From: a bacterium | Lineage (GTDB): Bacteria > DYJV01 > JALVYZ01 | Direction: 5' to 3' | Assembly (NCBI GenBank): GCA_027037705.1 | Contig: JALVYZ010000434.1 | Location: 1 to 6,244 of the forward strand | Length of the DNA: 6,244 nucleotides | In this document: one piece after another, positions 1-6,244 of the stretch | Layout of the letters: the number at the start of each line of letters is the position of its first letter | Position numbering within the stretch: position 1 is the first letter of the stretch | Position numbers and translations under genes: made by a program | The notes under the pieces: generated by a model | What the model saw: only the letters and a program-made list of their open reading frames with translations | What the model was told of the DNA's origin: nothing | Databases searched by the model: none

Positions 1-735
1 CTGAAAGACTTTAAACAATATTTAGAACAAAAAGGAATAACAGAAGGTAAAATTAATCAATATATGGACCAAAACACTATTAGAGACTTCATAGAAAGCC
101 GTATAAGCCATTTAAGCCCAAAATCTGCTCTTGACTATACAACAAGCTTTAATTCACTTCTAAAAGGCTTAGAACAAGCAAATATAACTATTCCTGCAAG
201 TCCGAGTCAAAATGATTTTTTAAAAGATTTTAGAGAAGTATTTAGAGAAGAAATGAAACAATTAGAAGTTGAAAGTGGTCGCTATATACAAAATGTAGAA
301 CAAAAATTAGATGCATTAAGAGAAATACGATATGAAAGCTATGTAGTAGCAAAAATTCAATATGAGACAGGATTTAGAGTTAATGAAGCTTTAGAAGTTG
401 CGAAAAATTTCTCAAATTACTATAACCCTCAAACAAATACTTTAGACGGAGTAATTGGAAAAGGTAATCATCAATATGCTCCAAAATCCATAAGCCATCA
501 ATTAGCCCAAGAAATACAAAAAATGGAACATATTCCTCACTATAATACCTATAGACAAGACTTAAAAGAAGTTGGAATAAATAGAAGTCACGATTTTAGA
601 GTAACTTATGCAAAAGATTTGTTACAACGGAAATTAGAAGAGGGAAAAGAATATAAAGAAGCTTTAAGAAAGGTCAGCAAAGAAATTAATCATCACCGAC
701 CTGAGATGACGGAATATTATTTAAATAGAGCTTAA
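1..735 (+). CDS. Tyrosine recombinase (phage-integrase family), C-terminal 244 residues; 5' part lies at 5899-6244
   Basis: A site-specific DNA strand-exchange enzyme. The frame is open from base 1 (CTG) and continues the ORF that starts at 5899, giving 291 residues across the circle. In full-length numbering the catalytic set is Arg173 (ETGFRVNEAL, codon 376-378), Lys201 (GKGN, the beta-hairpin lysine), His244 and Arg247 (SHDFR, from 589), His278 (NHHRPEM) and nucleophile Tyr287 (TEYYLNRA, codon 718-720). The His278-to-Tyr287 spacing of nine residues is that of XerC/D-type enzymes. The N-terminal half (about 30-130) is helical and would be the core-binding, SAM-like domain. It is the second gene of an operon with the small HTH protein at 5502. 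The ATG at 64 is internal and is not the start. Family membership is seen directly in the motifs. The job (multimer resolution, inversion or integration) is inferred, and the recombination site is unknown. It converges on the lipoprotein gene with only 8 bp between stop codons and no visible terminator. Confidence 0.93.
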   Translation: MKDFKQYLEQKGITEGKINQYMDQNTIRDFIESRISHLSPKSALDYTTSFNSLLKGLEQANITIPASPSQNDFLKDFREVFREEMKQLEVESGRYIQNVEQKLDALREIRYESYVVAKIQYETGFRVNEALEVAKNFSNYYNPQTNTLDGVIGKGNHQYAPKSISHQLAQEIQKMEHIPHYNTYRQDLKEVGINRSHDFRVTYAKDLLQRKLEEGKEYKEALRKVSKEINHHRPEMTEYYLNRA

Positions 736-743
736 ATAGTTTA

Positions 744-1400
744 TTATTTATCTAATCCCAAATTTCCTTTATTCCATAAATTTAATTTAATTTTTTTAAG
801 AGACGTTGGAGAAACATTTTCTAATTTAGCTTCAGGAATTTTTTCTTTAAATCTATTACTAATTTGGGCAATAAATAATAGAGGAGCTTTTTCTCCACTA
901 ATACTTTCTGCTACAGCTTTTGTAATATGCCCCATAATCCCATCTACTCCTTCTTGATAAAACTCATAAATATAGACTTTATATCCATCCTTATAAGGAT
1001 AAATAGCACCTTTGTATACTACATATTGTCTATTAAAAGGTGTTCCCATTTCTTCACTACCTTCAACACTGTACCATGCATTTGTAGTATCTAATTGAGT
1101 AGCTTCTAATTTTGGATTTCCTGCAGCAATTGTATTTAATGCTCCAAAAATATTTTTTCTTACTGGTCTAGATGGAGTTTGCGGCAATGTTTCAGGCATA
1201 AAATTTTCTACTTCTTTCATATCTTTTGCTCTTAAAGAAATAGCGTCATATAAAGCTTGTTTAACTTTCTCACTATCTACTGTTTTAGGAACAAAATAAA
1301 TTACTCTAGCTTTTTTAGTAGACACTTGATTATCAGTAACAGCACATCCTGTTATTGCTAAAAATAATACAGAAAGTACAAATAACAAAGTTTTTTTCAT
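744..1400 (-). CDS. Putative lipoprotein, 218 aa, function unknown
   Basis: I do not recognise a family. The N-terminus has a lipoprotein signal peptide: MKK, a hydrophobic stretch at about residues 4-16, then the lipobox ITGC with Cys19 as the lipidated residue. Residue +2 is Ala, not Asp, so by the enterobacterial sorting rule the mature protein would go to the outer membrane. The mature part (199 residues after Cys19) is mixed alpha/beta, with a Tyr-rich block at about 126-149 (QYVVYKGAIYPYKDGYKVYI) that looks like beta strands. The start is well supported: AGGAGG at 1406-1411 (complement) lies 5 nt before the ATG, and a -10 box lies at 1435-1440. It is the only leftward gene, and it faces the recombinase tail-to-tail. 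On a small replicon, surface exclusion, phage defence or a host-interaction role are possible guesses. None is shown by the sequence. Confidence 0.85.
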   Translation of the reverse strand: MKKTLLFVLSVLFLAITGCAVTDNQVSTKKARVIYFVPKTVDSEKVKQALYDAISLRAKDMKEVENFMPETLPQTPSRPVRKNIFGALNTIAAGNPKLEATQLDTTNAWYSVEGSEEMGTPFNRQYVVYKGAIYPYKDGYKVYIYEFYQEGVDGIMGHITKAVAESISGEKAPLLFIAQISNRFKEKIPEAKLENVSPTSLKKIKLNLWNKGNLGLDK

Positions 1401-1440
1401 TAAGACCTCCTGTTAAAGGATTTTTTAAAGAGAAATTATA
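1401..1440 (-). promoter_or_regulatory. Promoter and ribosome site of the lipoprotein gene
   Basis: On the minus strand a perfect TATAAT lies at 1435-1440 (ATTATA on plus), just after a T-rich stretch (1441-1452). This would start RNA near 1428 and give a leader of about 28 nt. AGGAGGTCTTA (1401-1411, complement) is a near-ideal Shine-Dalgarno (SD) site 5 nt before the ATG. No clear -35 box is present, which fits Campylobacterota promoters. Confidence 0.6.
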
Positions 1441-1490
1441 ATAAAAAATTTCAAATAATCTACTTAACATAATCAATGTTCTCTATAACT

Positions 1491-1526
1491 AAAAGAGTTT
1501 TATTGAGAAGAATAAAATACTCTTTT
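1491..1526. repeat. Imperfect hairpin, 14 bp with a 2-nt bulge
   Basis: AAAAGAGTTTTATT (1491-1504) pairs with AATAAAA (1511-1517) plus CTCTTTT (1520-1526). The loop is GAGAAG and TA (1518-1519) is bulged. It sits between two divergent genes and abuts a second inverted repeat (1525-1562). It could be an operator or a weak transcription stop. It is AT-rich, so part of the pairing could be chance. Confidence 0.45.
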
Positions 1527-1562
1527 GTTAAAAACCAATATCGTCTTTTAAGTTTTTAACAA
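1525..1562. repeat. Perfect 11-bp inverted repeat upstream of the HTH gene at 1612
   Basis: TTGTTAAAAAC (1525-1535) and GTTTTTAACAA (1552-1562) are exact reverse complements with a 16-nt spacer. A smaller pair, ATATCGT (1538-1544) and ACGATAT (1580-1586), is interleaved with it. Possible -10 boxes (TATATT 1569-1574 or TAAAAT 1574-1579) follow directly, so this is a candidate operator, perhaps for the HTH protein encoded just downstream. Autoregulation is inferred. Confidence 0.45.
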
Positions 1563-1611
1563 GATTGCTATATTAAAATACGATATCAGTTTTAAATAAA
1601 AAGGCATTAAA

Positions 1612-2040
1612 ATGAAACAAAACAAACAAGACTATAAAGATTATATCTATATCCGAATTCCAAAAAACGAATATGAAGCAATAATTCAAGGAAGAAAGAA
1701 AGTAACAAAAAAGGATATAGAAGATTGGAGATTTGATTATGAACTAAAACAAAGTACAAAAACCAAAGGAGCAAAAAGAGCCGCCAAAACAAAAGAATAT
1801 AGAGCGGTTAGAAAGATGTTTAAGGCATTAGAAAGTTATTACAATAGTCTTTTATTTGAGGGAGAACATATTACTCCATACAAACTTGCAAAACTTGCAG
1901 GAGTAAGCTATCCAACAGCAAAAAAATTTTGGAATAAATATAATCTTGATACTTGGAAAGAAAATTTTAAATACAAAAAGCAAGAAGCATTAAATGATTT
2001 CAAACTAATAGAATTAGCTGAAATATTAATAGCTGTTTAA
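1612..2040 (+). CDS. Small HTH DNA-binding protein, 142 aa
   Basis: The family is not recognised. The protein is basic. Residues 47-66 are rich in Lys, Thr, Ala and Arg and look like a flexible linker. A helix-turn-helix is visible at about 88-110 (ITPYKLAKLAGVSYPTAKKF): the Ala-Gly-Val-Ser turn followed by a Pro-Thr-Ala-Lys-Lys recognition helix is typical. The N-terminal 40 residues are Tyr-rich (DYKDYIYIRIPKNEYEAI) and may form a strand pair for dimerisation. AAGG at 1601-1604 gives a modest ribosome site 7 nt before the ATG. The gene lies between an inverted-repeat region (1491-1562) and the 500-bp replication control region (2041-2540). Its likely role is transcriptional regulator or copy-control/origin-binding factor; the two cannot be separated from sequence. 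It runs divergently from the lipoprotein gene and lies about 500 bp before rep, so it is probably its own transcription unit. Confidence 0.8.
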   Translation: MKQNKQDYKDYIYIRIPKNEYEAIIQGRKKVTKKDIEDWRFDYELKQSTKTKGAKRAAKTKEYRAVRKMFKALESYYNSLLFEGEHITPYKLAKLAGVSYPTAKKFWNKYNLDTWKENFKYKKQEALNDFKLIELAEILIAV

Positions 2041-2188
2041 AATTTAACGTTTAAAAGCCCTCTAATAAATTTTTACTCCTTTTAAGTATATAATATCCCT
2101 AAAACCTTTATCGTTGCTCTACGGGCTTAAAACCGCTAAATTTTAAACAAAAAAATCGCGCTATTTCAAAAAAAAGGGAAGGGAACAC

Positions 2189-2285
2189 TAATTAAAGATT
2201 AATCTAAAAAATTAAAAAAATCCTCTATCTCTATCTTAATAAAACTACAATCAAAATTTACCAAAAGTAAGTAAATCTTTAATTA
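2189..2285. repeat. 12-bp inverted repeat, 73-bp spacer
   Basis: TAATTAAAGATT (2189-2200) and AATCTTTAATTA (2274-2285) are exact reverse complements. Given the AT content some such pairs are expected by chance, so significance is uncertain. A role as a protein-binding pair is possible. Confidence 0.3.
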
Positions 2286-2353
2286 AAAAGTTTCTACTTA
2301 ATTTAAAAATAGTAAAGGATATTAACCAAATATAACTAAACCGTAAAAAAAAT

Positions 2354-2383
2354 AAAAAATAAAAAAACACAGCTTTGCTGTGT
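2354..2383 (-). terminator. Intrinsic terminator for a leftward transcript
   Basis: ACACAGC (2367-2373), loop TTT, GCTGTGT (2377-2383) form a perfect 7-bp stem. Read leftwards it is followed by a run of U (A run 2361-2367, then A-rich to 2342), the classic intrinsic terminator shape. There is no T run on the plus side. No leftward gene lies between here and 4293, so it implies a non-coding leftward transcript such as an antisense RNA against the rep leader. Confidence 0.65.
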
Positions 2384-2445
2384 ATGAAATATAATAATAG
2401 TGTATAGAGCTCGTGTAGGAAATTTTTTCCTGTGTAGGAAATTTT
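2380..2445. repeat. GTGTA-type direct repeats overlapping the rep promoter region
   Basis: GTGTAGGAAATTTT occurs exactly twice (2413-2426 and 2432-2445, period 19). A related GTGTATGAAAT lies at 2380-2390 and a shorter GTGTATAGAG at 2400-2409, making four same-strand GTGTA motifs in under 60 bp. The exact pair lies immediately upstream of the -10 box at 2450. They could be binding sites for Rep or for the HTH protein at 1612 (iterons or operators). Binding by either is inferred. Confidence 0.55.
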
Positions 2446-2446
2446 A

Positions 2447-2455
2447 TGTTATAAT
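2447..2455 (+). promoter_or_regulatory. Extended -10 promoter for rep
   Basis: TG-T-TATAAT at 2447-2455 is a perfect extended -10 element and would start RNA near 2462, right at the leader hairpin (2463-2488). There is no convincing -35 box. A second TATAAT lies at 2390-2395 and could give a longer leader. A leader of about 80 nt to the rep ATG fits leader-based copy control. Confidence 0.6.
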
Positions 2456-2462
2456 ACCAAAC

Positions 2463-2488
2463 AAGCTACCAGCTGCCACTGGTAGCTT
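2463..2488 (+). promoter_or_regulatory. Perfect 10-bp hairpin in the rep leader
   Basis: AAGCTACCAG (2463-2472) and CTGGTAGCTT (2479-2488) pair perfectly around the loop CTGCCA. It is G+C-rich for this replicon and starts at the predicted 5' end of the rep mRNA. There is no U run, so it is not a plain terminator. It is more likely a leader stem-loop and a kissing target for an antisense RNA that carries the complementary loop. This role follows the known ColE2 and other theta-plasmid control schemes and is inferred here. Confidence 0.65.
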
Positions 2489-2520
2489 AAATTTAAACAT
2501 CACTTGATAGGATTTTTAAA

Positions 2521-2556
2521 ATGCATAGAAAGATAACTCAATGCAATCCAATGTAG
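2521..2556 (+). CDS. 11-codon leader ORF overlapping the rep start
   Basis: An ATG at 2521 has AGGA (2509-2512) 8 nt upstream. The rep ATG at 2541 has no recognisable ribosome site of its own. The mini-ORF (MHRKITQCNPM) reads through the rep start in another frame and stops at TAG 2554-2556, 13 nt past the rep ATG. This is the geometry of a leader peptide that couples translation to rep. The encoded peptide probably has no function of its own. Coupling is inferred. Confidence 0.45.
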   Translation: MHRKITQCNPM

Positions 2557-3698
2557 TATCAAAATTATACCATAATTCTATCTCTAAACAAAATTTATTT
2601 AAATTTCTGTTAGAGAGATTACCAAAAAAAACTCTTTATGCTTTTAGCAAACAAGATATAAAATTCCAAAGAACCGCTTCTGCAAGAGAAGCCCTTTTAA
2701 AAGGTAAATATCTCTATTATAATCAAAATCTTTTTACAGAGCTTATCTTTGATATAGATGACATCTCTCACACTAGCATAAATTTAGAATGGATTTTTAA
2801 AACTTTTTTAGATAAGACAGGTATCATTCCATGTTGGGTATGCTATACTGACAACGGAATACAATTATGTGTTAGTCTAAACACTTTTTACAAACTATCT
2901 CAAAAACAAAAAAAAGTCTTACAAGACTTTAAACAATGGGTCATTGACAACTGGTCTTTAATTGATAAAGTAGGTAGTAAAAGACTAAAAGGTTGGTGGC
3001 GTAATCCTCTAACACAAAAAGATTTTATCTTTACAGGTTGGGTTACATCCTTTGGAGAAATTAAAGAATTCTTATTAAGAAATAGGCCTGTTAAAGAACA
3101 ATTTAAGACTGCTACAATAAAAAACAGCATAAAGATAAATATCAAAGCCATAAAAGAAAAAAAATTTTTTATCGCAGGAGAACCAGTAAAAGGAAATAGA
3201 AACAACTGGGTTTGGTATAACACTATGTTATATTGCAATAGCAAAAATTTTAAGGAGGTCTTAGAAGTTACAAAAGAATTAAATAAAAAAATTAAAGAAC
3301 CATTAGAAAAAAAAGAGTTAGTAAAAATTGCAAAAAGCGTCACAAAATACAATAATGGATTTAACAGAGGAAACGAAATATACGGCTGGAATATACCATC
3401 AAAGTGGAATATTGGAAGTATGAGATTTCAAAAAATTAAGAAATTAAAATTTAATGAATACATTCAGGAGGTTAAAAGGAGACAATCAATGGCTGGTAAA
3501 AAAATAGGAATAAAAAATTTAATAGAAAGAAACAAAAAAAAAGCAAACGAAACTAAAAATAAAGTCTACCAAGCTATCACGAAATTAAAAGAAAAAGGAG
3601 AAAAAGCAACTATTCTCAAAATTGTAGAAATTGCAAAAGTTAGTAAAAATTCTGCAAGTAAATATCTTAAACAAGCAAAAGAAGAAGGGATAATATGA
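2541..3698 (+). CDS. rep: ColE2-type plasmid replication initiator (Rep primase), 385 aa
   Basis: Initiates plasmid replication. ColE2-family Rep proteins bind the origin and make the short primer for host DNA polymerase I. I recognise the family by layout. Residues about 64-180 fit the replicase domain (PF03090-like): LIFDIDD at 68-74 aligns with the FDVD acidic motif of ColE2 Rep and is the likely metal site, followed by a C-terminal KVGSKRLKGWWRNP block. Residues about 217-272 fit the PriCT-1 primase C-terminal domain (GNRNNWVWYNTM, then LVKIAKSVTKYN, as in ColE2 IAKSIAKY). The basic tail contains an HTH at about 355-380 (ATILKIVEIAKVSKNSASKY), which would bind the origin. It is somewhat longer than ColE2 Rep (about 300 aa). 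The start is fixed by an in-frame TAG at 2526, and ATG 2541 is the only usable Met near the front. It has no ribosome site, so translation is probably coupled to the leader ORF. It overlaps the next gene by 4 nt (ATGA). Functional assignment is by remembered similarity, not a search. Confidence 0.85.
   Translation: MQSNVVSKLYHNSISKQNLFKFLLERLPKKTLYAFSKQDIKFQRTASAREALLKGKYLYYNQNLFTELIFDIDDISHTSINLEWIFKTFLDKTGIIPCWVCYTDNGIQLCVSLNTFYKLSQKQKKVLQDFKQWVIDNWSLIDKVGSKRLKGWWRNPLTQKDFIFTGWVTSFGEIKEFLLRNRPVKEQFKTATIKNSIKINIKAIKEKKFFIAGEPVKGNRNNWVWYNTMLYCNSKNFKEVLEVTKELNKKIKEPLEKKELVKIAKSVTKYNNGFNRGNEIYGWNIPSKWNIGSMRFQKIKKLKFNEYIQEVKRRQSMAGKKIGIKNLIERNKKKANETKNKVYQAITKLKEKGEKATILKIVEIAKVSKNSASKYLKQAKEEGII
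2564..2572 (-). promoter_or_regulatory. Candidate promoter of an antisense RNA to the rep leader
   Basis: On the minus strand TGG-TATAAT (plus 2564-2572) is a perfect extended -10, with TTGTTT 16 nt further upstream as a possible -35. RNA starting near 2557 and ending at the terminator at 2354-2383 would be about 190-200 nt. It would cover the rep start codon, leader ORF, its ribosome site, the leader hairpin and the GTGTA repeats. It lies inside rep codons 8-11, so the match could be coincidence in AT-rich DNA. Confidence 0.45.
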
Positions 3699-3889
3699 AA
3701 CCGAAACAATACGAAGAACTAGGAAAAGGACTTATCAATTTAGCAAATATGATAGGAGGTTTGTCTGTAATCAACGGAATTTTTGGGATTAATCATATAA
3801 ATCCGATTATAATTCCTTTAGTAGCTTATACAGTAATAGGATTATATTTTTCAGGAATAACACTTATTGGAGAAGGAGAAACAAGATGA
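3695..3889 (+). CDS. Small membrane protein, 64 aa, unknown
   Basis: The family is not recognised. After a short charged N-terminus (MKPKQYEELGKG) come two hydrophobic segments, about 13-31 (Gly- and Ile-rich) and about 36-58, joined by Gly-Ile-Asn-His. This fits a small two-helix inner-membrane hairpin. The start ATG overlaps the rep stop (ATGA, 3695-3698) and the tail overlaps the next start in the same way, so it is translationally coupled to rep and expressed with it. On plasmids such genes can be toxin/holin-like, entry-exclusion or cell-envelope proteins. The sequence does not choose between them. Confidence 0.7.
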   Translation: MKPKQYEELGKGLINLANMIGGLSVINGIFGINHINPIIIPLVAYTVIGLYFSGITLIGEGETR

Positions 3890-3987
3890 TTGGTATTTAT
3901 ATATTTTGGGCTTTATTTACCACTTTTATGATAATTTTTGCTTTATATGTAAAAAACAAAAAGCATAAACCACACCACGAGAAATAA
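3886..3987 (+). CDS. Single-pass membrane microprotein, 33 aa
   Basis: The start ATG overlaps the previous stop by 4 nt (ATGA, 3886-3889) and is preceded by GGAG at 3875-3878. It has one hydrophobic segment, about residues 2-22 (IGIYIFWALFTTFMIIFALY), then a basic, His-rich tail (VKNKKHKPHHEK). Its TAA is followed at once by the ATG of the next gene, so the small size is supported by operon packing on both sides. The topology resembles type I toxins, small phage lysis proteins or small membrane-complex subunits. No function can be assigned. Confidence 0.65.
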   Translation: MIGIYIFWALFTTFMIIFALYVKNKKHKPHHEK

Positions 3988-4293
3988 ATGAGAGCTGAAA
4001 TAAAAGTTCATTTTAAGAAAAAAGAAACTCAAATAAATATCAAAGTTCCTCTTACTCAAGAGGAACGAGAAATAATAGCAAAATGCATTGCTGAATTAGT
4101 AGAAAAACTAAAAGTAGATGATGTCAAAATTACTCAGACAAATCCTTATAAAAAACTTCCAAAAGAAAGAGAAGAATTAAAAGAGGTAGGAATATCGCTA
4201 GAAAGTAACAAAGAAATCTTAAAAAAAGCAATAGAAGAAATAGACAAATTTAATCAAATGCTCGAAGAATGGTTACAAAAAGGAAATTTTTGA
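3988..4293 (+). CDS. Hypothetical soluble protein, 101 aa
   Basis: The family is not recognised. It starts directly after the previous stop (TAAATG). The N-terminal half looks like a beta-beta-alpha-beta unit (strands at about 2-9 and 14-20, an amphipathic helix 23-42 rich in Glu, Ile and Lys, then DDVKITQ). The C-terminal third (about 56-97) is a long Glu/Lys-rich helix with coiled-coil character. There is no signal peptide or membrane segment. It is the last gene of the rep operon. Its TGA stop is also the TGn of the extended -10 promoter at 4291-4299. Translation is probably coupled, as no strong ribosome site is visible. It could be a partner of the two membrane proteins or a DNA/RNA-binding accessory. 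Confidence 0.7.
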   Translation: MRAEIKVHFKKKETQINIKVPLTQEEREIIAKCIAELVEKLKVDDVKITQTNPYKKLPKEREELKEVGISLESNKEILKKAIEEIDKFNQMLEEWLQKGNF

Positions 4294-4299
4294 TATAAT
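4286..4299 (+). promoter_or_regulatory. Extended -10 promoter of the large non-coding RNA
   Basis: A T run (4287-4291) leads into TGA-TATAAT (4291-4299), a perfect extended -10 of the Campylobacterota style. The predicted RNA start is near 4306, exactly at the first stem of the structured region. The promoter overlaps the end of the preceding gene, so the RNA can be made independently of the rep operon. Confidence 0.65.
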
Positions 4300-4395
4300 T
4301 AAATTACTTCTTTTTTTAGAAGTTTCTCTAGCAAATGCTAGAGTTAAGGTGCATTACCAATTTGGGAGTGTGCCTGTATCCCAATGGGATACGAA

Positions 4396-4456
4396 GTCGG
4401 CGATACTCCTCCGCCTTGCATATGCAAGGTAAGTCCGACAATAAAAAAGGAGGAGT
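4396..4456 (+). other. Predicted H-type pseudoknot hiding a Shine-Dalgarno-like GGAGGAG
   Basis: GTCGG (4396-4400) pairs with CCGAC (4435-4439), and ACTCCTCC (4405-4412) pairs with GGAGGAGT (4449-4456). The two helices cross, which makes a pseudoknot. The 16-nt palindrome 4414-4429 forms a hairpin between them. The second helix covers a GGAGGAG that would otherwise look like a ribosome site, although no ATG follows it closely. The helices are exact; formation of the fold is inferred. Confidence 0.45.
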
Positions 4457-4502
4457 TATAGCCTACCTTAAGGTAGGGTTGGTTGAGGCGGTTGAAAAAA
4501 TC

Positions 4503-4550
4503 GCAGTTTTTCCCAAAATGGGAACAGGTGAAGTATGCCCTGTTAACTGC
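4503..4550 (+). other. Predicted three-way junction in the large RNA
   Basis: The outer stem GCAGTT (4503-4508) with AACTGC (4545-4550) encloses two hairpins: TTCCCA/TGGGAA (4510-4515/4519-4524, loop AAA) and CAGG/CCTG (4525-4528/4539-4542). All three helices are exact Watson-Crick and nearly abut, which is hard to explain as coding sequence. Confidence 0.5.
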
Positions 4551-4573
4551 AAATGTTGGAGGTTATTAAAATT

Positions 4574-4606
4574 ATGTTGTCAAACTTCTCTTCTTTAATA
4601 TTCTAA
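4574..4606 (+). CDS. Possible 10-codon ORF inside the large RNA (weak)
   Basis: ATG at 4574 follows GGAGG (4558-4562) at a spacing of 11 nt, longer than ideal, and encodes MLSNFSSLIF before TAA. It is very short and hydrophobic. It may be a leader peptide or chance. Confidence 0.15.
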   Translation: MLSNFSSLIF

Positions 4607-4924
4607 GGTAATTGAGGAGGTCTTCAAAAATATTTTAAATCAAACATAATTAGTTGTTAAAAAGCACAAAGTGTAATTAAGTTCGAAAAGCTTGCTCTAA
4701 ATAAAGTAGCAAAGCAAACGGCACATTAAATAATTATATAGGCTATTAAGCTGTTGAGCGGAGCGAAACGGAGGGAGCAAAGCGAGCTTAATTGCACAGA
4801 GTGCAAATGCAAGTGCGATTATACCTTTATGGTATAGGAGCAGTTGCATTATTTAATGCAAGCGATAGCTTGCAACCACAACCGAGCTACCTGCTTTGCA
4901 GGTGAGCGAGGATGTGGTTATATA

Positions 4925-4992
4925 GGGCGAAGCCTGTCTCTTTAAGCGAAGCGGCATTGCGAAAGCAATGTAAAGAGACAAGGGCTTTGCCC
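4925..4992 (+). other. Long 20-bp rod stem with inner GAAA hairpin
   Basis: GGGCGAAGCC (4925-4934) pairs with GGCTTTGCCC (4983-4992), with one G-U pair, and continues into TGTCTCTTTA (4935-4944) with TAAAGAGACA (4971-4980), with only two unpaired bases (4981-4982) between. Inside, CATTGC-GAAA-GCAATG (4955-4970) makes a 6-bp stem with a GNRA tetraloop. This is the strongest local structure of the region. The stretch also contains GCGAAGC twice (4927-4933, 4946-4952) and GCGAAAGC (4959-4966), known as very stable mini-hairpins in single-stranded DNA. Confidence 0.6.
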
Positions 4993-5036
4993 ATTGCCCC
5001 GCATATGGGGCTAAAAGCCCCTAAATAAGGGGCAAT
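4993..5036 (+). other. ATTGCCCC/GGGGCAAT stem enclosing a second G+C hairpin
   Basis: The outer stem 4993-5000/5029-5036 (8 bp) encloses GGGGCT/AGCCCC (5007-5012/5016-5021, loop AAA). The CCCC and GGGG tracts can also pair in other registers, for example 4997-5000 with 5007-5010, so this element could switch between folds. Confidence 0.5.
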
Positions 5037-5048
5037 TAGAAAAACTTA

Positions 5049-5106
5049 GAAACACTTATTGAAACATTACAAAATCTTTGAAACATAATGAAACAAATGT
5101 TTCAAG
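5049..5106 (+). repeat. Four GAAACA direct repeats ending in an inverted copy
   Basis: GAAACA occurs at 5049, 5061, 5080 and 5090 (spacings 12, 19 and 10), followed by TGTTTCA at 5099-5105, which can pair with the last copy (TGAAAC/GTTTCA). It follows the strongest stems directly and may be a protein-binding repeat cluster in DNA or RNA. Confidence 0.35.
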
Positions 5107-5186
5107 CGAAAAAATCTGCTGGTGGCAAAAGCTCTGGACAAGAAAACATTTGGGATATTAAAAAATAAAAAATTAAGGAGGTCAAA

Positions 5187-5222
5187 ATGGTAGTGCAAAA
5201 AAAATATTTTAGGCGGAACTAG
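5187..5222 (+). CDS. 11-codon ORF with a perfect ribosome site inside the large RNA
   Basis: AAGGAGG (5175-5181) lies 5 nt before ATG 5187, the best ribosome site of this half of the replicon. The ORF encodes MVVQKKYFRRN and stops at TAG 5220-5222. The product is short and basic. It may be a leader peptide whose translation changes the fold downstream, or a ribosome docking site. No homologue is known to me. Confidence 0.3.
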   Translation: MVVQKKYFRRN

Positions 5223-5268
5223 CTCAGGATTAAAAATAAACAGGCGGTGTAGTTCTCAGGGATAAAAA
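5211..5268 (+). repeat. Imperfect tandem repeat, about 26 nt, twice
   Basis: AGGCGGAACTAG at 5211 and AGGCGGTGTAGT at 5242 begin two related units. Both continue into CTCAGG and end in a run of A (5232-5236 and 5264-5268). The units differ at a few positions and are 31 nt apart. The first unit overlaps the stop of the 11-codon ORF. Confidence 0.4.
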
Positions 5269-5426
5269 GCAATAGTTGCTTTTGGTAGTTTCGCGATAAC
5301 TACCTAAAAAAATCGCAGATCTTAACTAGCCGGTGACTACCAAAAAATCTAAAAATCATTAGTTGTTTAATATTTAAGGAGGTCTTAAAAATATTAAAAA
5401 TTCGCATTTGCATACTACCTTAATTC

Positions 5427-5457
5427 TGCTATCTCTTGGAGATAGCATTCTTTTTTC
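5427..5457 (+). terminator. Intrinsic terminator ending the large RNA
   Basis: TGCTATCTC (5427-5435), loop TTG, GAGATAGCA (5439-5447) form a perfect 9-bp stem followed by TTCTTTTTTC (5448-5457). This is a textbook intrinsic terminator and the natural 3' end of RNA started at 4306. It lies only 45 nt before the ATG of the recombinase operon. Confidence 0.75.
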
Positions 5458-5489
5458 TAAAGTCTTTCTAAGATTTTAGAAAAAAGAAT
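5447..5489 (+). promoter_or_regulatory. 20-bp hairpin overlapping the terminator U tract
   Basis: ATTCTTTTTTCTAAA (5447-5461) pairs exactly with TTTAGAAAAAAGAAT (5475-5489), extended inward by five more pairs (one G-U) to the triloop TCT (5467-5469). Its 5' arm is the U tract of the terminator at 5427-5457, and its 3' foot is directly before the AAAGGAG ribosome site (5490-5496) of the next gene. The arrangement suggests attenuation, RNase III processing or protection of the downstream mRNA. I see no separate TATAAT promoter between the terminator and the operon. Confidence 0.5.
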
Positions 5490-5501
5490 AAAGGAGAAAC
5501 C

Positions 5502-5906
5502 ATGTTACCAGAAACACAAGTAAAACCTTTAATGAAGAAGTTAGCAATCAAAAAAGAAAAACATATAGCTTATTTTTTAAAAAGACTTGAAGGATGGATA
5601 CAAGCAAATGGCAATACAACAATATCTCTTGCAAAAGGGATAAATAAAATTTTAGATGACATTCATCAAAAAGAAATTAGAGAAGCCCAAAAAATAAAGC
5701 AACTTAATCTATCAAAAGTAAAAAACAGCCTTATTGTAAAATATGCCAATGAAATCGTAGAACTTTACACTGAAAAAGAATTAGGAGTTAGACGTATACA
5801 ACAATGGTTATGGGATACTCATAGAGCAAAAATTAGCTACTCATCAATATATCGTTTTTTACAATCTCAAAGTCTCATAAGAAAAAAGGATCAAAACAAT
5901 GGCTAA
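5502..5906 (+). CDS. Small HTH protein, 134 aa, first gene of the recombinase operon
   Basis: The family is not recognised by name. GGAG (5493-5496), within AAAGGAG 5490-5496, 5 nt before the ATG, supports the start. Residues about 8-60 are helical and basic (KKLAIKKEKHIAYFLKRLEGW). A helix-turn-helix is visible at about 86-122: LYTEKELGVRRIQQWL, then ISYSSIYRFLQSQ, the pattern of resolvase/transposase-like HTHs in which the Ser-Ser-Ile-Tyr-Arg helix reads DNA. The 3' end overlaps the recombinase start by 8 nt, so the two are translated together. A likely role is a recombination directionality or accessory factor, or a repressor of the operon. It is too small to be a transposase and shows no DDE residues pattern. 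Confidence 0.75.
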   Translation: MLPETQVKPLMKKLAIKKEKHIAYFLKRLEGWIQANGNTTISLAKGINKILDDIHQKEIREAQKIKQLNLSKVKNSLIVKYANEIVELYTEKELGVRRIQQWLWDTHRAKISYSSIYRFLQSQSLIRKKDQNNG

Positions 5907-6244
5907 TTTAAGAGGTGGGACATTCGCAAAACAAATAAAAGATGCTTTTTATAGGACTTTAAAATTTGGAGAAGGTAGACATATGAAAGATGATAATTTT
6001 ACACATAGCTTGGCTCTTGCAGAAAAAAGACAAATGTATCTGAAAGACTTTAAACAATATTTAGAACAAAAAGGAATAACAGAAGGTAAAATTAATCAAT
6101 ATATGGACCAAAACACCATTAGAGACTTCATAGAAAGCCGTATAAGCCATTTAAGCCCAAAATCTGCTCTTGACTATACAACAAGCTTTAATTCACTTCT
6201 AAAAGGCTTAGAACAAGCAAATATAACTATTCCTGCAAGTCCGA
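5899..6244 (+). CDS. Tyrosine recombinase, N-terminal 115 residues (continues at base 1)
   Basis: This is the 5' part of the recombinase described at 1-735. The ATG at 5899 overlaps the previous gene's stop (5904-5906), with AGGA at 5887-5890 as ribosome site. It begins MANLRGGTFAKQIKDAFYRT and runs in frame to the window edge. Codon 48 (CTG, 6040) is the same base triplet as 1-3. The segment holds the N-terminal arm and the start of the core-binding domain, and no catalytic residues. It is cut only by the window edge and is not broken. Confidence 0.9.
   Translation, partial: MANLRGGTFAKQIKDAFYRTLKFGEGRHMKDDNFTHSLALAEKRQMYLKDFKQYLEQKGITEGKINQYMDQNTIRDFIESRISHLSPKSALDYTTSFNSLLKGLEQANITIPASP
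6040..6244 (+). repeat. Terminal redundancy with bases 1-205 (circular molecule)
   Basis: 205 bases match 1-205 at an offset of 6,039, with a single difference: 78 is T and 6117 is C, both giving Thr73 of the recombinase. The reading frame continues across the junction. The simplest reading is a circular replicon of 6,039 bp assembled with overlapping ends. A tandem multimer or mixed population would explain the silent difference. Confidence 0.9.

Follow-up and report, generated by a model that had tools for sequence, protein, structure and literature searches.

The window analysed here is the whole of a 6,244-nt contig (C434) from a bacterial genome bin (G000; 2.05 Mb, 496 contigs), and it raises the question of what a small replicon carries in a stretch of more than a kilobase that has no believable gene. 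The first 205 bp of the contig (1-205) recur as its last (6040-6244) with a single mismatch (T/C, position 78). Because of this 205-bp terminal repeat, C434 probably represents a plasmid that is circular and about 6,039 bp in size, circularity being read from a terminal overlap with one mismatch; a tandem array may be the other option. Sampled chromosomal contigs of the bin have a G+C content of 27-31%, similar to that of the plasmid; no 16S turned up for the host. The genes are arranged in the order Rep, two small membrane-type proteins, a 101-aa protein, the region in question, an HTH protein and a tyrosine recombinase (Table 1). The integrase matches a Campylobacter plasmid protein at 25% identity, and the AlphaFold model of the 101-aa protein is unusably poor (pLDDT 49).

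Table 1. Features of the contig and of the putative RNA region (window positions unless another replicon is named; paired positions are separated by a slash)
Feature	Position	Strand	Remarks
Lipoprotein-like gene	744-1400	minus	No family match; ribosome-binding sequence AGGAGGTCTTA upstream, as inside the RNA region
Primase-like Rep gene	2541-3698		
Two small membrane-type proteins	3695-3987		After the rep gene
Rep and two-membrane-protein block	C434 3695-3987; C242 (L006) 1538-1876; C42 (L049) 2952-3280		
101-aa protein gene	3988-4293	plus	No assigned function; directly upstream of the region in both copies; 93% identical
Promoter-like site	4272-4299	plus	GTTACA, 16-nt spacer, TATAAT, TG ahead of the -10 (extended -10); 10/12
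5' domain	4306-4660	plus	z -4.8; hairpin at predicted start
5' domain stems	4326/4343, 4347/4375, 4376/4392, 4405-4412/4449-4456, 4462/4477, 4488/4504, 4510/4524		
Possible long-range closing helix	4537-4550/4914-4928	plus	Pairable in both copies, four one-sided changes; competes with local stems
Central domain	4660-5040	plus	G+C 44%; about ten hairpins and arms; z -12.2
Central domain stems	4671/4797, 4690/4778, 4806/4850, 4857/4874, 4877/4916, 4936/4979, 5007/5021		
3' AT-rich part	5040-5456	plus	Conserved islands at about 5175-5200 and 5245-5345
3' part helices	5188-5196/5333-5342, 5216/5255, 5266/5282, 5284/5304		
Intrinsic-terminator-like hairpin and T run	5427-5457 (hairpin 5427-5447)	plus	-11.8 kcal/mol; z -3.5
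AT-rich palindrome	5447-5490		Two 20-nt arms, 3 nt apart; between RNA and HTH gene; kept in C242
134-aa protein gene, weak HTH match	5502-5906	plus	Directly downstream of the region in both copies
Tyrosine-recombinase-like gene, first part	5899-6244	plus	In a circular molecule, goes on at 1-735

Size, composition and coding content

The region 4306-5456 is 1,151 nt long and makes up 19% of the ~6,039-bp unit, in line with an initial annotation that had described one fifth of the replicon as free of believable genes; no reading frame is conserved across it. Its longest ORF (4335-4598, 87 aa) has no match in Pfam or PHROG and is broken in the C242 homologue, described below, where an in-frame stop comes early and an indel shifts the frame. 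A coding region was rejected on these grounds, and the check for a conserved protein frame, an outcome that would speak against an RNA, found no ORF kept between the two copies. The G+C content is 37.2% over the whole region, 43.8% in 4660-5040 and 46.7% in 4780-5040, compared with 27.6% in 1-4290; the earlier figure of near 50% for the region was an overestimate, even for this last core segment.

The sequence AGGAGGTC occurs inside the region at 4615, 5176 and 5377; the whole window has five copies, where 0.06 would be expected. The copy at 5176 precedes the ATG (5188) of an 11-codon frame, MVVQKKYFRRN; C242 keeps the SD and ATG of this micro-ORF, followed by a 9-codon frame, MAVQKQKLR. A 23-nt direct repeat (78%), at 4308-4330 and 5448-5470, brackets the region and possibly marks the ends of a cassette; the sequence is T-rich, so the repeat may also be due to chance.

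The second copy

Just one further copy was found, on contig C242 (L006, minus strand) of this bin. It is 82% identical, with about 200 substitutions and many indels, and is located between the same two genes, beside another rep gene family (Rep_3-like) whose product is closest to those of Campylobacterota plasmids. Since homology between the contigs spans about 3952-5535 of the window, the 101-aa gene and the start of the HTH gene are shared; C242 breaks off after the first codons of the latter. A third replicon of the bin, C42, has no copy of the RNA; its Rep shares 63% identity with the Rep of C242. On all three replicons the rep gene is followed by two small membrane-type proteins, with Rep families that differ. 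Positions 296-2077 and 3296-5128 of C42 (L049, G000:C42) are diverged (87-95%) head-to-tail copies of an orf197-origin-rep unit with iteron-like repeats, an arrangement that suggests multimeric or joined plasmids.

Compared in 50-column bins, the two copies are 91-100% identical over 4306-4510 and about 82-98% identical over most of 4660-4960; beyond that, towards the 3' end, identity is 47-89%. In the adjoining 101-aa gene dS is 0.14 and dN 0.03; the 5' domain of the region is more conserved than the synonymous sites of this gene.

Predicted fold and conservation of base pairing

The whole region folds at -354.7 kcal/mol, compared with -254.2 (sd 7.1) for shuffled sequences (z -14.2). The z score is -7.7 for the minus strand, -12.9 for 4306-5260 and -10.9 for the C242 copy, whereas two gene-bearing control stretches gave +2.4 and -0.8. 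The 3' part (5040-5456) alone is no stabler than its shuffles (z -1.5), yet its pairing is conserved. About 30 consensus helices of at least four pairs are kept by both sequences, which bears out the initial count of at least fifteen stems. A GNRA-type loop, also proposed at that stage, is present as a GAAA tip at 4961-4964; in C242 the arm (4956-4969) is longer, and its replaced tip again ends in a GNRA loop (GUAA). The loop GCGAT (5293-5297) has its complement in ATCGC (5312-5316), and neither segment differs between the copies; the pseudoknot claimed earlier is possible on the strength of these segments, without support from covariation.

Helices predicted from one copy alone were checked against the other; for the controls, substitutions were permuted across same-base positions in 150-column bins, a procedure that preserves local rates and base content and not neighbour effects. 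At a pair probability of at least 0.9, 18 pairs were broken against 36.4 (sd 4.0) expected, and in the reverse direction 14 against 31.2 (sd 4.1), each matched by 0-1 of 2000 permutations. Double changes were mildly raised (7 vs 3.2 expected, 77 of 2000 permutations being as high); a second count gave 13 vs 10.2 (15 of 60 as high). The two-sequence consensus energy was -251.2 for the whole region, compared with -192.6 (sd 9.0) for permuted partners, none of 60 being as good, and -123.9 for the central domain, compared with -90.5 (sd 7.9; 0 of 100); for the 3' part, too, none of 100 permuted controls was as good. The lack of broken pairs in the consensus model is no evidence alone, because only pairs allowed in both copies entered it.

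Individual compensatory changes are also seen. Three adjacent pairs at a hairpin tip (4891-4893/4899-4901) change from CUG/CAG to UCC/GGA in C242, and single compensatory pairs occur at 4956/4969, 5009/5019, 5191/5339 and 5284/5304. With two sequences no single helix can reach R-scape-type significance, and the 5' domain is too conserved for a covariation test. Run on one homologue, the covariation check that the initial annotation had proposed favours structure: extensive pairing preserved without a protein frame, a hallmark of large structured bacterial ncRNAs, was found in the two sequences. From this comparison of two sequences we conclude with good confidence that 4306-5456 is a structured nucleic acid in which selection preserves base pairing.

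Promoter, 3' end and strand

The -10 element of the promoter-like site lies directly after the stop codon of the 101-aa gene. The site is the best plus-strand promoter match within 3900-5600 and is invariant in C242, and the extended -10 promoter previously ascribed to the region stands. The intrinsic terminator proposed with it is present in C434 as a hairpin and T run and is lost in C242, where the counterpart of the hairpin has a z score of -0.5. The adjacent palindrome might serve as an operator, as a site for the recombinase or as a terminator in both directions. A promoter scan of the plus strand recognised none from the terminator up to the HTH start.

Of the two strands, the plus strand has the more stable fold (-354.7 vs -304.5 kcal/mol). 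Consensus folds of both strands beat permuted controls, and the substitutions do not discriminate between them; it is the conserved promoter and the better fold that make the plus strand the likely one. A plus-strand RNA from the region is likely, and we infer that it is transcribed as one molecule.

Distribution

A DNA search of plasmids and phages returned no relatives, only short chance matches, and five patterns found none in viral contigs. One pattern scanned over the contigs of 84,980 genomes gave two chance matches in unrelated Gammaproteobacteria. About 520 genomes searched fully contained no relative beyond the two known copies, which were also the only matches to a covariance model of 4804-4923 in 386 genomes. 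In 136 genomes from another phylum, a DNA search gave only weak matches of about 30-60 nt, and no homologous region was found by way of the neighbouring proteins (Rep, HTH, 101-aa). The Campylobacter plasmid pCORI-2 was considered and rejected: it has the same HTH-integrase order, and its upstream gap is dissimilar and structured only near the HTH gene. The phylum of the bin is represented by one other genome in the searched collection, and relatives of the window's genome are perhaps absent from collections.

Interpretation and alternatives

The best single explanation of 4306-~5456, and in our judgement a moderately probable one, is a free-standing, structured plus-strand RNA that acts in trans. 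Such an RNA would start near 4306 from the extended -10 promoter and, in C434, end at the hairpin 5427-5447. Its fold would comprise three domains: at the 5' end one that hardly varies, in the centre a branched one, perhaps closed by a long-range helix over about 380 nt, and at the 3' end one with a possible pseudoknot. By analogy with ROOL it would act as a stable particle, alone or with protein, the adjacent 101-aa product being the first candidate partner. Because it was found only on plasmid-like contigs, and the related replicon C42 lacks it, the RNA would serve the plasmid rather than the host. A fuller version of this proposal is tentative and falls short of probable: a new class of giant (~1.1-1.2 kb) plasmid RNA with no relationship to GOLLD, ROOL or OLE, which would form a defined particle, perhaps contact the ribosome through AGGAGGU motifs and support its plasmid in an uncultured bacterial lineage.

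The main rival, because the terminator is not conserved and no separate HTH promoter was recognised, is a giant structured leader produced by readthrough. The region would then be the 5' untranslated part of an HTH-integrase transcript and would act by attenuation, via the terminator, the ribosome-binding-like motifs and the micro-ORF at 5188. In both copies the region sits immediately before the same HTH gene and in the same orientation, which fits this reading, as do the weak or absent terminator of C242, the apparent lack of a plus-strand promoter from the terminator to the HTH start, and the three internal AGGAGGTC sites, the middle of which keeps its SD-ATG in C242. A leader of 1.15 kb, however, would be of unusual length; in C434 the region is cut off from the HTH gene by a good terminator, conservation peaks at the far 5' end and not beside the HTH gene, and the palindrome 5447-5490 could hold a promoter that the scan missed. 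We consider a leader rather unlikely.

That the stems act as DNA, in a replication, recombination or transfer region where any RNA is incidental, is improbable. The conserved promoter points into the region, the fold of the plus strand is better than that of the minus strand, arms with GNRA tips and internal loops are features characteristic of RNA, and the iteron-like repeats typical of replication origins sit elsewhere on related replicons; all this outweighs, in our view, the success of both strands' consensus folds against controls and the adjoining recombinase gene and conserved palindrome.

The initial annotation had considered a distant member of the GOLLD, ROOL or OLE type, and the region's size class and mobile-element setting are indeed comparable with those of known large RNAs. 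Whole-Rfam scans of the C434 copy (E up to 10) and the C242 copy (E up to 5), however, gave only chance-level sub-threshold matches, those of miRNA type falling mostly on the AT palindrome, and neither copy matched group I or II introns, HEARO or any other Rfam class. The models of GOLLD (RF02032), ROOL (RF03087) and OLE (RF01071) had no match in the whole bin at E up to 10; the latter two matched nothing in the control genomes either, so that these two runs had no positive control. The statement that no known family fits is upheld by both copies, and membership in one of these families, introns and HEARO included, is very improbable. Decayed coding or phage sequence that folds by chance is scarcely credible: the 3' part is AT-rich and about 30-50% diverged in places, but preservation of pairing beyond all permuted controls largely refutes it, the 5' domain is more conserved than neighbouring synonymous sites, and no homologous protein was found.

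Comparison with known large RNAs

Very few bacterial RNA classes come near a kilobase, and three with solved structures form unexpected RNA-only complexes (PMC12286853). The region is a candidate for a new class of large structured RNAs, and a free-standing molecule is its most likely form. It would add one class, from a lineage that has been little sampled: an unassigned RNA that takes up a fifth of a 6-kb plasmid and retains its pairing despite sequence drift. The small plasmid offers a compact genetic setting for direct functional tests.

Among the known classes, OLE is likewise large and structured and forms a particle with proteins; it differs in being about 600 nt long and described chiefly in Gram-positive extremophiles and anaerobes (PMC12054373), and its model does not match the region. 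GOLLD, an RNA of phages and prophages, is giant and structured and often exceeds 800 nt; it often lies near tRNA islands or has a tRNA in its linker, an association that is not obligatory (PMC12286853). The region differs from it in having no match to the model, which covers the conserved 3' region of GOLLD, and no tRNA; neither tRNA nor tmRNA was found in the window. ROOL is also a large, branched non-coding RNA with a pseudoknot, carried on mobile elements and in one case on a plasmid (PMC5643018). Its fold needs no protein, and it assembles into an 8-mer nanocage (PMC12286853). The long RNA of an L. salivarius megaplasmid, later classed with ROOL, is more abundant than 16S rRNA (PMC5643018; PMC12286853), and its deletion identified no definitive function (PMC5643018). 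At 1.15 kb the region is about twice as long as the published ROOL RNAs (520-659 nt), and it lacks both a covariance-model match and a tRNA in the window. Its likeness to GOLLD, ROOL and OLE is one of kind, in size, branching and mobile-element setting, rather than of sequence or model match.
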